This document shows, piece after piece, positions 33,205-48,893 of a stretch of 64,000 bases of DNA; position 1 is the stretch's first letter, and each line of letters starts with the position of its first letter. The translations under genes were made by a program, and so were the position numbers. The notes under the pieces are model-generated. The model did no database searches. It saw only the letters and a program-made list of their open reading frames with translations, and was not told the origin of the DNA. Origin of the DNA: Candidatus Saccharimonadota bacterium (GTDB lineage Bacteria; Patescibacteriota; Saccharimonadia; Saccharimonadales; Saccharimonadaceae). The stretch lies in contig JAFYAV010000001.1 in the NCBI GenBank assembly GCA_017540545.1, positions 124,001-188,000 of the forward strand. Reading direction: 5' to 3'.

Positions 33205-35905
33205 AATGCTTTAGATCTTCCGCCTGCGAAATAGACATCCTAATCACTTCGCCCGATTCGCCATAATAGCTGTTCGACCTAGTCGTGCAGCTATATTTAC
33301 TGCACTCTAGCTCGAGATAACGCTTTTCGCCAGGATAATTACTATCATATACACCAACGTAATAATGATTCGAACCCTTTGCGTCCTGTATTAGGTTAAT
33401 TGCGTTCATTGCATGCAATCCACCAGAAAAGTACGCAAGAATCACTGGCGCTTCATGTCTGCGCATTCTTGACGCCATCAAGCTCATGAAATCATTCGAA
33501 TTCGTCATCGTCTTTACGTTCGTCTTCGCCACGGCGCTACCAACACCAATCGCACTCCCCGAACTATACATTTTTACTGTCGTCTGACGAATTTGCCCCG
33601 CATAAATCGCATTCATTAAGCTTCGGTCAATATCGTCCATTACAGTACTATTTTGCATTTTCACCTCATTGAGACGCGCCTTCTCAACCGCGTTATATGA
33701 AAACCCGTACTTCTTAATCTGATCATCTGCAGCAACTTTGGTTTTCTTTTTATAAAAATCGTACATGCCAGTCTTATTAATCTCCGTTCGCACATTATCG
33801 CTATAAGTCAGTGCTCCGTCCTTCATTACATATTTGTCGACAGGCTCTTGCTCTCCGAAATAATTTGCTCCAAACTGTGACATATATTTCAATGCACCCG
33901 TACGCAATTTGTAATCATACAAATTCTGATAATCCTTGAAGTATGACCAATTCAAGTTATAGCTATACGAAGTTAAGCCAGCCGCCGTTATTGCATCATG
34001 ACGTAGCGGCATTCTTCTCGAATAATATAACTGTGCAAACGTTGCCATCCCGTAACAATGCCCATCCACCAATAGATTCGAACTGTAATTTCTAAACGAA
34101 AAACCGTCGCGCGTCACCATAAAACCACTATCGGCCATCACGTAACCATCCATCTTACCGTCACCATCTACGTCTGCCAACTCGTCGTTCAATAAAACTT
34201 CCAAATTATTAAACACTTCATCTAGCCCCGTCACGTCTGAGCTCGAGAAAAGTTTGCAGCCCGTCTTTTCTGCAAGAATCTTCAAATCATTACTATACGC
34301 ACCCTCCCCAAAGCCCAACGCGCATACGCGCACATTTTGGCTAATCATTTCGCTAGCTATTATTTCCGCATTACCAGAAAGGTGATTTGCGTCTACGCCA
34401 TCAGTCAGGAGCACCAAAGTCTTCATGCTCGCCCCGTGCGAAAATTCCTTTGCGCCATCTCTAACTGCCCGGGCAATATTAGTCCCGTCCACTTTCACAC
34501 TTCGGCGTTCATTCATTCCTTCCAATGCTTTTTTCAAATCATCAATACTCGTTCCAACTTTAGCTGATGCTACAAAATCTCCACTAAACTCGCCCACGCC
34601 CACTTTCGCGCCCTTTTTATCTAGCCTTTCCGCCAGCTCTCTCGTTAACTGGAAGCGCCGCCCGTCCGGATCATTCGCATCAAGCTTCCCATTAAAATCT
34701 TTACCATCGTTCATCTTCTTATACTGCTCATTCGTGAACATGCTCCAAGAGTTGTCCAGCACAAACAGAATTTCCGAATCTTTATTCTCGAGATTCTTCG
34801 CTTTCTTGGAGCCAAGAATATAATACGAACTCAAATCGTCTATCTTGGCGCTCACCTTTCGCTGAGCCGCATCTATCTTTGTTGCAGTCGCCACATATTT
34901 TCCGCTACCCAAATCGTAGCGATAGAGAACAAGCTCATTCGCATTAATCCTTGCACTAGCCAGTTCGCTATCCAAATAGGCAATCGTCACCACAATCTCC
35001 GTTGTTTTACCGGCCGTATAAAAACTATACAACTTCGGAATTAATCCAGCCTTTTTGCTTAATGCCGCACCATTTGTAATATCTATCGTCGTATTTGCAA
35101 TGTCGCCTGTACCGCTCAACTTAAGGCGCACATTTCCACTACTGTACGTATAGCTCATCGTTCGCTCGCCATCTTTCTTTCCATCACCCTTCGAATCCGC
35201 CTTCAGTGGGCTAAAACCTAGTTTAATCTCGCTCGCATCATTTAAGCCATCACCATCCGTATCAGCCTTCAGTGGATTGGTTTTTGACGTAACGACTTCG
35301 TAACCATCCGCTAAACCATCGCCATCCGTGTCCGTTAGATCAATTTTCGTCCCCAACGAGCGCTCACGCTCGTTTACTAAACCGTCGCCATCGCTATCCG
35401 CGTCTCGGCGAGCTTTCGTCCTATATATGTCCTCCAATGCCAACGTTTCACCCTCGACGTCTTTCGTTACGACCATAAACGTTTTCTCAATCGTCCTCAA
35501 TTGATACTTCGCCCTTAAAGTGCACGCGCCAGCCCCCTCCGACAAATCCCACTTCACACCATCGTCACTCCGCTCCGGCTGTTTTATCTTATCGTTATTG
35601 CTACAGACACCCTCGTAACTCACGCCATCCAACACCCCCGCATTCGCGACTACACCTAATTTCACCGTCGTAGGCATTACGTAGTCTAAGCCAATATCGC
35701 CATAGTCCGTATCCCAATTGATATCGCCGCCTTTCAGCAAAAAGACCAGCACGCCAATCGCCACCACTGCCAAAACACCAATTACGCCCAAAATTATCAG
35801 CGCCACTGGTTTACGACTTTTTCTCGGCACATTCGGCACACTCGACACATCCGGCGCACTTGATGTATAGACCATATTATTTTGCTGCCCAACCTCTGGA
35901 TTCAT
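33197..35905 (-). CDS. anchored surface protein: TSP3 repeats, VWA domain, Cys-peptidase-like C terminus
   Basis: 902 codons. The N terminus is polar, followed by one membrane helix (~residues 31-56, VALIILGVIGVLAVVAIGVLVFLL). Calcium-binding type 3 repeats of DxDxDG type (e.g. DADSDGDGLVNE, DTDGDGLADG) cover residues ~165-245. A VWA domain has the MIDAS start VLDNSWSM (~residue 382) and a VLLTDGVD strand. A C-terminal domain has GHCYGMATFAQ (~615), a His in SGGLHAMNAI (~830) and an Asp/Asn in GVYDSNYPGE, a layout suggesting a papain-like cysteine peptidase. The upstream TGA-TATAAT (35926) is an extended -10. Likely a host-facing adhesin/protease; the peptidase role is inferred. Confidence 0.85.
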   Translation of the reverse strand: MNPEVGQQNNMVYTSSAPDVSSVPNVPRKSRKPVALIILGVIGVLAVVAIGVLVFLLKGGDINWDTDYGDIGLDYVMPTTVKLGVVANAGVLDGVSYEGVCSNNDKIKQPERSDDGVKWDLSEGAGACTLRAKYQLRTIEKTFMVVTKDVEGETLALEDIYRTKARRDADSDGDGLVNERERSLGTKIDLTDTDGDGLADGYEVVTSKTNPLKADTDGDGLNDASEIKLGFSPLKADSKGDGKKDGERTMSYTYSSGNVRLKLSGTGDIANTTIDITNGAALSKKAGLIPKLYSFYTAGKTTEIVVTIAYLDSELASARINANELVLYRYDLGSGKYVATATKIDAAQRKVSAKIDDLSSYYILGSKKAKNLENKDSEILFVLDNSWSMFTNEQYKKMNDGKDFNGKLDANDPDGRRFQLTRELAERLDKKGAKVGVGEFSGDFVASAKVGTSIDDLKKALEGMNERRSVKVDGTNIARAVRDGAKEFSHGASMKTLVLLTDGVDANHLSGNAEIIASEMISQNVRVCALGFGEGAYSNDLKILAEKTGCKLFSSSDVTGLDEVFNNLEVLLNDELADVDGDGKMDGYVMADSGFMVTRDGFSFRNYSSNLLVDGHCYGMATFAQLYYSRRMPLRHDAITAAGLTSYSYNLNWSYFKDYQNLYDYKLRTGALKYMSQFGANYFGEQEPVDKYVMKDGALTYSDNVRTEINKTGMYDFYKKKTKVAADDQIKKYGFSYNAVEKARLNEVKMQNSTVMDDIDRSLMNAIYAGQIRQTTVKMYSSGSAIGVGSAVAKTNVKTMTNSNDFMSLMASRMRRHEAPVILAYFSGGLHAMNAINLIQDAKGSNHYYVGVYDSNYPGEKRYLELECSKYSCTTRSNSYYGESGEVIRMSISQAEDLKHFN

Positions 35906-46785: not shown

Positions 46786-47184
46786 ATGAAAAAAGCATTA
46801 GAAAAAACAGGGCAAATTCTTACTGGCGCCGCCACTATGGCGACTCTCATGGCCGGTAGGGCTATGGCCGCTATGAATTACGACAATCCCGCTCTGGCAG
46901 GCGCCGAAGCTGCTCGCGCCAACGGCATGCCAGCAGATTTGGTCGGGACTAGCGGTGTCTTTACGAAAATCACCAACACCGTGCTTTTCGCCGTAGGCAT
47001 CATCTCCGTCATCATGCTCATCGTTGGCGGTCTTCGCTATATTATCTCTGGCGGCGATAGCAAAAAAGTTACTGACGCCAAAAATACCATCATGTACGCC
47101 ATCATTGGCCTCATTATCGCCATCCTTTCTTATGCCATCGTCAACTTCGTCATCAGCGCCGTTGGCGGTTCCGTTACTGTCTAA
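46786..47184 (+). CDS. VirB2/TrbC-like pilin (paralogue 1)
   Basis: 132 codons with a signal-like N terminus (MKKALEKTGQILTGAATMAT..MAGRAMA) and two membrane helices separated by a short basic loop, SGGDSKKVTDAKNTIMYAIIGL. This helix-loop-helix with K-x2-AK-TI-x-YAIIGL is shared by six minus-strand genes downstream and resembles VirB2/TrbC pilins of type IV secretion systems, which polymerise into the pilus. It is the only plus-strand copy. Its 3' end is 1 nt from the convergent comF end, with no terminator between. Role in pilus assembly inferred. Confidence 0.75.
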   Translation: MKKALEKTGQILTGAATMATLMAGRAMAAMNYDNPALAGAEAARANGMPADLVGTSGVFTKITNTVLFAVGIISVIMLIVGGLRYIISGGDSKKVTDAKNTIMYAIIGLIIAILSYAIVNFVISAVGGSVTV

Positions 47185-47185
47185 T

Positions 47186-47854
47186 TTACCCACTTCTAGC
47201 AATCAAAACCACTGATATTTTCTCCGCTCCAGCTTTTTGAAGTTCAGCACACGCGGCTAGCATACTGCTGCCCGTCGTTCAGGCATCGTCCAACAACACA
47301 TATTCCGTTTTCTTATCAACTGCAGCAGCTAGCGCATAAGCACTCGCCGCTTGCCTTTGCCGCATTTCTGCATTCGCACCCACCTGAACGGTATTATTCC
47401 GACGCCTCAATAGTCGTTCGCACCTGCCACCACACCTCCACATTATTCTCCGCGCCAATAAGGTCGTATGGTCGAATCCCCGTGACCGTATATGTTTTTC
47501 TATGGTTGGCAAAGGTATTAGTACTTTTCCGCTTGCGAATGCCCCAAACATTTTGAAGAACAAATCCGCAAACACCGTCGCACAACTTCGCATAGATTGA
47601 TACTTATATAAGCTTACTAGCTCCTTCAACAAACCATCTCTTTCTCCCAAATAATATTGCCTGCGAAAGGGCAATCCACATCCGCAACATATCCCACAAT
47701 TTAGCATTTTGCCGCAACGCAAGCATCTTCAATTATTACCCGCCATGATGTATTTCTTACAACATTCACACAATAATCCACCTACTTTTCCACATGATAT
47801 ACAGGATTGAGGGCAAAACATTTCACCAATCGCGCCGATTATTGTATTTTTCAC
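47186..47854 (-). pseudogene. comF: ComF-family amidophosphoribosyltransferase-like protein with two in-frame UGA codons
   Basis: DNA-uptake/PRTase-fold protein (ComFC type). GTG start at 47854 with GGAGG 7 nt upstream. The frame runs to TAA 47186-47188 without shifts: N-terminal zinc-finger Cys pairs (CISCGKVGGLLCECC; RCLRCGKMLNCGICCGCG), ALPFRR/GERDG-like region, IPLPTIEKHIRSRGFDHTTLLARRI and the PRPP loop DDA-x-TTGSS. TGA codons interrupt it at 47729-47731 (after MAGNN) and 47279-47281 (in the PRPP loop, DDA[UGA]TTGSS). Both are one transition from TGG. Either an early pseudogene, or a gene read through at UGA. The visible 147-residue piece is only the middle. Confidence 0.75.
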
Positions 47855-47902: not shown

Positions 47903-47943
47903 AAAGCTTAAGAGTGTAAATTAGTGGAGGAATATAAAAAACT

Positions 47944-48462
47944 ATGGCTCGTAAACAAGACGACATGAGCTTAGACGATGAGCTTACAGCAGCCTTTCTA
48001 GAAGGCGACAACTCTGGACTAGTTGCAGAAGAGGAACCGGTGGAAACTCCAGTCAACACTCCAGCAGAAGAAACTACTATCGTTGAAGAAGAATACGTAG
48101 ACGATGGTGACGGTTGGGACGACAGCGCCGACGATATCCCTGGCCAATTGGCTGTTGATGTCTACGAAACAGCCGACAAGCTCGTCATCAAGGCGCGCAC
48201 CGCTGGCATCGAACGCAAAGATCTCGACGTTTCTATTTCTGACAATATCTTAACCATCTCTGGCGTCCTCAACGGCGGGGAAGACGACAAGGCCATCCAA
48301 TGGCACATCCAAGAATGCTATTGGGGCGAGTTTAGCCGCACCATCGCATTGCCGATTCAGGTCAAAGAAGATGGCGTCGAGGCCGTACTCAAAGATGGCG
48401 TTCTTACTATCTCCTTCGAGAAAGAAAAGACCGAAGCGCCAAAGCGCATTCAAATCAACTAA
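47944..48462 (+). CDS. Hsp20/alpha-crystallin small heat-shock protein
   Basis: 172 codons. A disordered acidic N-terminal region (~60 residues) is followed by the alpha-crystallin domain (residues ~70-165): LAVDVYETADKLVIKARTAG, ISDNILTISGVL, GEFSRTIALP, and the conserved strand ...AVLKDGVLTISFEKE. ATP-independent chaperone holding unfolded proteins. GGAGGA lies ~13 nt before the ATG. Own promoter; no CIRCE element seen. The bidirectional terminator at 48473 ends it. Confidence 0.92.
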   Translation: MARKQDDMSLDDELTAAFLEGDNSGLVAEEEPVETPVNTPAEETTIVEEEYVDDGDGWDDSADDIPGQLAVDVYETADKLVIKARTAGIERKDLDVSISDNILTISGVLNGGEDDKAIQWHIQECYWGEFSRTIALPIQVKEDGVEAVLKDGVLTISFEKEKTEAPKRIQIN

Positions 48463-48518: not shown

Positions 48519-48842
48519 TCAGCTCCCACTCAAACCGGCCAAAACAAAATCCACAATCGCAAAGGCCGAAAGACAAATGATTAGCCCCACAATACCATAC
48601 AATATGGTATTTTTACCTTTTTGCACTCTCTCCGGCGACCCCTGCGACGTCATATAATAAAACCCGCCAATAATCACCATTATCACCGCTATTACACCTA
48701 CAACGCCAAGAGTTGTGTTTAGAAGATTCTTCACCACCACAGTCAAATCTGGTCCGTCTGGAATTGTTATTATCTGCGAAACGCCTTCATGCGCAGCATC
48801 TGCATTTATCATTTGGCCAAATATGCGCAACAACCCATCCAT
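48519..48842 (-). CDS. VirB2/TrbC-like pilin (paralogue 2)
   Basis: 107 codons from MDGLLRIFGQMINADAAH at 48842; two membrane helices with the loop SQGSPERVQKGKNTILYGIVGL. It lacks an obvious signal peptide, starting directly with an extracytoplasmic-like segment. A minus-strand TATTAT (48850-48855) ends 7 nt before the ATG, so it is probably leaderless. It follows a terminator after paralogue 3, so it is separately transcribed. Confidence 0.7.
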   Translation of the reverse strand: MDGLLRIFGQMINADAAHEGVSQIITIPDGPDLTVVVKNLLNTTLGVVGVIAVIMVIIGGFYYMTSQGSPERVQKGKNTILYGIVGLIICLSAFAIVDFVLAGLSGS

Positions 48843-48863
48843 ACTATGAATAATACCATAATC

Positions 48864-48893
48864 AAAATACCCCCGCATCTGCGAGGGTATTTT
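48864..48893 (-). terminator. terminator between pilin genes
   Basis: AAAATACCC / GGGTATTTT hairpin after paralogue 3 on the minus strand. Confidence 0.8.

Follow-up and report, generated by a model that had tools for sequence, protein, structure and literature searches.

Conserved in-frame UGA codons in DNA-uptake genes of a genus of Saccharibacteria suggest a translational gate on competence

Late competence regulons are known from streptococci (ComX) and from Bacillus (ComK). On the level of translation, programmed recoding is exemplified by the UGA-C frameshift autoregulation of prfB and by the readthrough of phage Q-beta; in the programmed-readthrough cases known to us, one gene is concerned, and its site is fixed and set in a local context. 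In Absconditabacteria and Gracilibacteria, UGA has been reassigned to glycine. Reassignment of UGA to tryptophan has also been described (cases in PMC13092985), and Mycoplasma uses such a code (code 4). The bldA/TTA system of Streptomyces ties the translation of a small gene set containing a rare codon to a decoding capacity that depends on physiology (PMC11836424). In E. coli, UGA is misread mainly as Trp, on average at 0.5–6% in minimal medium, and cold or nutrient stress raises readthrough strongly at certain sites (PMC11126739). The context matters as well, UGA followed by C being a weak terminator (PMC5289835).

Here, we describe a genus of tiny epibiotic bacteria in which the competence (DNA-uptake) regulon is probably gated translationally by the readthrough of UGA as Trp, which we regard as the best explanation of the findings below. 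Similar to the TTA codon of the bldA system, the gate codon is limited to a small gene set, and its decoding capacity would depend on the physiological state. In contrast to this sense codon with its own dedicated tRNA, however, UGA is a stop codon subject to competition by RF2, no dedicated tRNA was found, and the affected genes form a competence-type regulon that shares an upstream motif. As in programmed UGA readthrough of the prfB and Q-beta kind, the in-frame UGA would restrict synthesis of the full protein (PMC5289835), but many genes of one regulon are concerned, as many as five UGAs occur in a gene, and their positions are mobile. UGA would be read as Trp as in code 4, and as an amino acid as in Absconditabacteria and Gracilibacteria; unlike these reassigned codes, the genus keeps RF2, ends 5–14% of its genes with UGA, shows UGA-Trp in one gene set only and has a tRNA-Trp with a CCA anticodon and a 5-bp anticodon stem. 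The genes behind the one promoter element (comEC, comF, dprA, radA and topA types) are those of ComX and ComK regulons, whereas we know of no competence element that matches the one found here, CTYRYGCTT about 33 nt ahead of often apparently leaderless starts. The chemistry of UGA readthrough is thus known, and it is the regulon scale and the mobile sites that differ. A literature search, with bioRxiv outside its reach, returned no published description of a UGA-gated DNA-uptake gene set.

The starting point was the comF locus in a stretch of 64,000 nucleotides (the window) from a Candidatus Saccharimonadota bacterium (Table 1). The original prediction described a comF frame that is open from GTG to TAA apart from exactly two TGA codons, free of frameshifts and preceded by an intact GGAGG ribosome binding site, all of which was confirmed on the minus strand. 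Its full ComF content was likewise borne out, since the read-through product matches TIGR00201 (E 4e-18, 66 bits, residues 29–220; below the curated cut-off of the model, 233.55) and the DDxxTTGSS and CxxC motifs are present in the alignment, which together identify it as a ComF protein. The start, GTGAAAAATAC, is strongly conserved among the genus members aligned. The comF gene of the nearest species also contains two internal TGAs and neither TAA nor TAG, therefore the double TGA is not a matter of chance. Small proteins of the T4SS_pilin type (PF18895) flank comF on both sides, one at 46786–47184 (+), convergent with comF, and one at 48519–48878 (-), beyond hsp20.

Table 1. Coordinates of the comF locus in the window and of further UGA-bearing genes in the genome of the window (G000)
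Feature	Position	Strand	Remarks
comF read-through ORF	47186..47854	-	GTG start, TAA stop (47188-47186); 222 aa with UGA as Trp
Internal UGA no. 1	47731-47729	-	codon 42, after MAGNN; N-terminal linker separating two zinc knuckles
Internal UGA no. 2	47281-47279	-	codon 192, PRPP loop DDA[UGA]TTGSS
comF Shine-Dalgarno GGAGG	47866-47862	-	7 nt upstream of GTG 47854
Upstream motif at comF, CTCTTAAGCTTT	47903..47914	-	49 nt upstream of the comF start
hsp20	47944..48462	+	divergent from comF, common intergenic region; context only
Secreted cutinase-family protein	G000:C2:127383-128879 (L061:7383-8879)	-	PF01083, E 3e-19; two internal UGAs, Trp in relative; competence-type motif; in 39/45 genus members
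Pilin-like protein and class B sortase 267 nt downstream	G000:C1 ~33484-35608 (L032)	-	one internal UGA each

The read-through ComF protein was used as a query against 61 genomes, and comF was found in 31 members of the genus of the window. Internal UGA codons, one to three per gene, are present in 29 of these and absent from two (G002 and G013), and the internal stops are UGA and essentially never UAA or UAG. Intact reading frames recur across independent assemblies with the UGAs in place, so that sequencing error at the TGAs is refuted. In an alignment of 30 genus comF genes, every locus taken on the coding strand, UGA occupies 13 columns and at least one UGA is kept in 28 of the 30 species. 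Among approximately 103 comF genes drawn evenly from other genera of the family, an internal TGA was seen in one weak partial match (G191); with the other genera entered as 0/103, the difference from the genus is marked (Fisher 2e-27). On a comF tree computed without the UGA columns, presence or absence of UGA changed once, while the position of the first UGA changed at least nine times. All per-species counts given here were taken by hand from search tables and may deviate by one or two, some genes being split or partial in fragmented assemblies.

The reading frames behind these codons are maintained. For comF, dN/dS is 0.07–0.21 in close as well as distant pairs, and for comEC, where most codons follow the first UGA, it is 0.13–0.30. 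The tested genes, comF and comEC, are thus otherwise intact and under purifying selection. An in-frame stop conserved in relatives with conserved coding sequence behind it supports programmed UGA readthrough or suppression, which the original prediction had named as one of two alternatives, and readthrough in this genus is likely. It is firmly established that these mid-gene UGA stops are conserved; evolution keeps and repositions them instead of letting the genes decay.

Tryptophan is the best-fitting residue at 36 UGA columns holding 89 UGA codons in the comF, comEC and dprA alignments (enriched 18-fold per column, 27-fold weighted). In the PRPP loop of ComF (DDVxTTGSS, column 195), Trp (UGG) is found in 23 species and UGA in five, and further conserved Trp columns alternate in the same way (W:UGA; comEC 462, 23:4; comEC 430, 16:2; comM 184, 2:6; dprA 70, 5:3). 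In many UGA columns, Trp is not found in any relative. The proposal that Trp was the original residue at both comF sites of the window therefore stands for the PRPP loop, but not for codon 42: UGA is found at column 41/42 in 13 species, UGG in none, and the other residues are R, N, G and E.

The first UGA of comF mostly lies at codons 41–57, in the linker between the zinc knuckles, with a full range from codon 41 to codon 130. Columns 36–62 hold 23 UGA and one UGG, compared to 15 and 42 in the remainder of comF (Fisher 3e-9, a nominal value, since the species share ancestry). If UGA were a mere synonym of UGG, Trp would be expected at these linker columns, where it is almost never present; UGA itself therefore seems to be under selection in the linker.

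The trait appears to extend beyond comF to a whole regulon, a scope outside the view of the original prediction. Three genomes were scanned completely for UGA codons flanked on either side by conserved protein sequence, namely G000 (795 kb, 74% complete), G034 (997 kb, 99%) and G030 (689 kb, 98%), with approximately 450–490 conserved genes each; antisense and shadow frames were masked and gene-boundary cases removed by eye. In G000, the interrupted genes are comF, comEC, comM (YifB), a secreted cutinase-like gene, a secreted LTD-domain protein and a pilin-like protein together with a class B sortase. In G030, they are comF, comEC, dprA, the cutinase-like gene, the LTD protein and a UvrD-like helicase, whereas G034 has comF only. 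The cutinase-like UGA is found in the same column in G000 and G030, and G034 has Trp there. The presence of this esterase in a DNA-uptake regulon suggests that the envelope of a host or neighbouring cell is its target.

A search of 45 genus genomes showed UGA in comEC in 23 of them (one to five per gene), in dprA in 20 of 41, in comM in 16 of 37 and in the cutinase-like gene in 18 of 39, with UAA or UAG in only few of the matches to these four genes. The comEC UGAs are scattered along the protein and the sequence downstream of them is conserved. Since each of comEC, comM and dprA lacks UGA in roughly half of the species or more, and G034 carries it in comF only, no single gene besides comF needs UGA. 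As controls, the Ile/Val/Leu-tRNA synthetases (PF00133) and the type IV pilus ATPases PilB/PilT (PF00437) of the same 45 genomes showed no internal UGA among approximately 150 matches listed for each, and dprA showed no UGA outside the genus in 149 genomes of the order. Corresponding scans with TAG and TAA yielded, among the matches listed, cases that resembled gene-boundary artefacts as judged by eye. The three whole-genome scans and the two control families hence limit UGA to one functional gene set.

A shared upstream motif, CTYRYGCTT, precedes the comEC, comM, dprA, cutinase-like, LTD, helicase, radA and topA genes in G000, G030 and G034 and ends 30–37 nt, usually 33 nt, before the start codon. 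A -10-like box (TATAAT/TAAACT) is frequent 6–9 nt ahead of the ATG, a distance which suggests leaderless transcripts. Motif and box together probably represent a competence promoter producing leaderless mRNAs. In G000 and G030, the motif precedes the internal-UGA genes, the sortase only as a follower of the pilin gene, whose copy lies approximately 112 nt before its start; because the sortase gene is located 267 nt downstream of the pilin gene and has no copy of its own, its place in the regulon depends on an assumed operon. In G030, the motif is found at five of five UGA genes besides comF and at 10 of 449 conserved ORFs (p ~2e-9, a descriptive value and not an independent test, since UGA genes of several species had led to the motif in the first place). 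The comF copy, CTCTTAAGCTTT, overlaps the hsp20 promoter on the opposite strand and is for this reason weaker evidence than the copies of the other genes; comF additionally has a Shine-Dalgarno sequence.

With respect to decoding, the sole Trp tRNA found in the three genomes is a tRNA-Trp(CCA), whose anticodon stem has the ordinary 5 bp. A suppressor tRNA-Trp(UCA), proposed as something to look for, was found neither in the window nor in the remainder of its assembly (74% complete); at the default threshold of ARAGORN no tRNA(UCA) was detected in G000, G034 or G030, and a Trp(UCA)-like anticodon-arm pattern is absent from all 45 genus genomes. Relaxed ARAGORN settings gave many low-quality calls, several tca/SeC among them, which were taken as noise. 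The tRNA-Trp is 99% identical in the sister genus G100, whose comF and dprA lack UGA, so that the tRNA gene itself does not account for the trait. A Hirsh-type or 4-bp-stem tRNA-Trp was rejected, as none was seen and as this 99% identical tRNA occurs in a genus without the trait.

G034 and G030 encode an RF2 with its SPF motif, and UGA terminates 66 of 463 (G000), 23 of 490 (G034) and 49 of 449 (G030) conserved genes. An RF2 lesion was considered and set aside on the presence of the factor in the relatives searched. The genome as a whole is thus not recoded, in agreement with the original prediction, and a genome-wide UGA=Trp code (table 4) was rejected on these grounds and on the lack of a tRNA-Trp(UCA) or a 4-bp-stem tRNA-Trp(CCA). 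The base following an internal UGA is more often A or C than U relative to real UGA stops (C versus T, Fisher 4e-5; the comEC share of the count may contain a few pre-start codons), a bias which is predicted to correspond to weaker termination contexts. This bias at position +4 is the only cis feature seen; the UGA sites in the comF alignment have no common local sequence, and the first of them changed its position at least nine times. Tandem back-up stops after normal UGA stops showed no clear enrichment.

How these codons would act can be outlined as follows. Trp would be inserted at UGA by the near-cognate tRNA-Trp(CCA), and full-length protein would result only when this tRNA beats RF2. 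By default, most ribosomes would terminate, in comF after approximately 41 codons. In a special physiological state, such as starvation, low RF2 activity or a changed level or modification of tRNA-Trp, UGA would be read efficiently, and once tRNA-Trp(CCA) outcompetes RF2, full-length ComF, ComEC, DprA and ComM would be made. Shared promoter and UGA reading would then form a gate of both transcription and translation that switches DNA uptake on. Since selection would act on the presence of a UGA anywhere in the mRNA, mostly near its beginning, the position of the codon would be free to move. Up to five UGAs per comEC would leave almost no protein at ordinary leak rates, hence a state of efficient decoding would have to exist, and a state-dependent change of RF2 or tRNA-Trp in level, modification or editing would be required. 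The regulatory role of UGA is inferred. We further hold it for fairly probable, if somewhat more guardedly, that the regulon is controlled collectively by its stop codons: selection would keep UGAs, at shifting positions, in the DNA-uptake genes and their co-regulated partners, and the state of RF2 versus tRNA-Trp would be a built-in sensor switching on horizontal gene transfer. Against the gate count the demand that several UGAs in one comEC place on decoding, the near-identical tRNA-Trp of G100, the many UGA columns without Trp, the overlap of the comF motif copy with the hsp20 promoter, the lack of clearly enriched back-up stops, the comEC, comM and dprA genes free of UGA, and the exceptions to the trait, namely the two species without UGA in comF and G034, where only comF has it.

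The main rival is a constant, leaky decoding of UGA as Trp that is tolerated in rarely transcribed competence genes of low demand and has no regulatory role. Compatible with it are the replacement of UGG by UGA where Trp is truly conserved (comF column 195, comEC 462, dprA 70, comM 184), the status of UGA as a minority stop codon (5–14%) and the finding that another saccharibacterium can grow without its competence genes (PMC10633639). The whole-genome scans, however, found internal UGA in no other conserved genes, seldom-used ones included, the comF UGA is kept in 28 of 30 aligned species despite at least nine changes of position, and drift among synonymous codons would not predict the linker ratio of 23 UGA to one UGG. 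The linker statistics and the limited gene set argue against constitutive leakiness, to which we assign a low but not trivial probability. We likewise consider it rather unlikely that a dedicated, so far unrecognised factor reads UGA in the competent state only, either a divergent suppressor tRNA or a C34-to-U editing or modification of tRNA-Trp. Such a decoder must be trans-acting, since the UGA sites share no local sequence. The five UGAs within single comEC genes, which need efficient decoding, speak for it, and C-to-U editing of tRNA-Trp is cited for kinetoplastid mitochondria (in PMC13092985), whereas the tRNA searches of G000, G034 and G030 (default threshold) and of the anticodon arms in 45 genomes stand against it. 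A dedicated factor would also be compatible with the UGA gate, for which it is a possible mechanism.

That the truncated product is functional as a short zinc-knuckle peptide, or that downstream re-initiation yields two separate chains, could be read from the first comF UGA lying mostly between the two zinc knuckles (codons 41–57). This is very improbable considering that the first UGA may come as early as codon 41 or as late as codon 130, that a second UGA lies inside the active-site loop in five species, that the comEC UGAs are spread over the protein and that the sequence after the UGA is conserved. Recent decay of comF, the other alternative of the original prediction, and with it a genus-wide loss of competence genes, would account for premature stops in several of them. 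This reading is refuted and retains next to no probability: the stops are essentially UGA alone and enriched at Trp sites, no frameshifts were noted in the aligned comF genes, dN/dS is 0.07–0.30, and the same trait recurs in dozens of species, with internal UGAs in 29 of 31 comF genes of the genus. The least credible reading is selenocysteine at UGA, where the argument would be that UGA recoding is a general phenomenon, with nothing specific to this genus; it was rejected because Trp, not Cys, is found at the conserved sites and no tRNA-Sec was detected (ARAGORN default threshold).

If the UGA gate is true, termination fidelity, usually seen as noise, would be a regulatory input to a whole developmental program, natural transformation. 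The same codon would encode an amino acid within one regulon and terminate translation in the rest of the genome, a natural intermediate toward stop-codon reassignment. The competence genes of this genus are likely annotated as pseudogenes. The gate predicts peptides with Trp at UGA, readthrough that is induced in parallel to competence, and a regulator acting at the CTYRYGCTT promoter; transformation-based genetics exists for an epibiotic lineage of the same kind (PMC10633639).

Three minor observations may be added. In many other genera of the family, a different conserved element, TTGACA...TGTCAA, is found close to the dprA start (L208–L225), and competence control has apparently been rewired in the genus with UGA. 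Approximately 80–90 nt upstream of the tRNA-Trp gene of G000 (G000:C1, 452784, minus), the sequence TTATTATGCTTATA resembles the competence motif; it was seen in G000 only and is absent in G034 and G030. The release factors of E. coli have SGAGGQ and SGPGGQ around the catalytic GGQ, and GGHGGQ is found at this place in RF1 and RF2 of G034 and G030 and in RF1 of G000, possibly a peculiarity of termination in this lineage.
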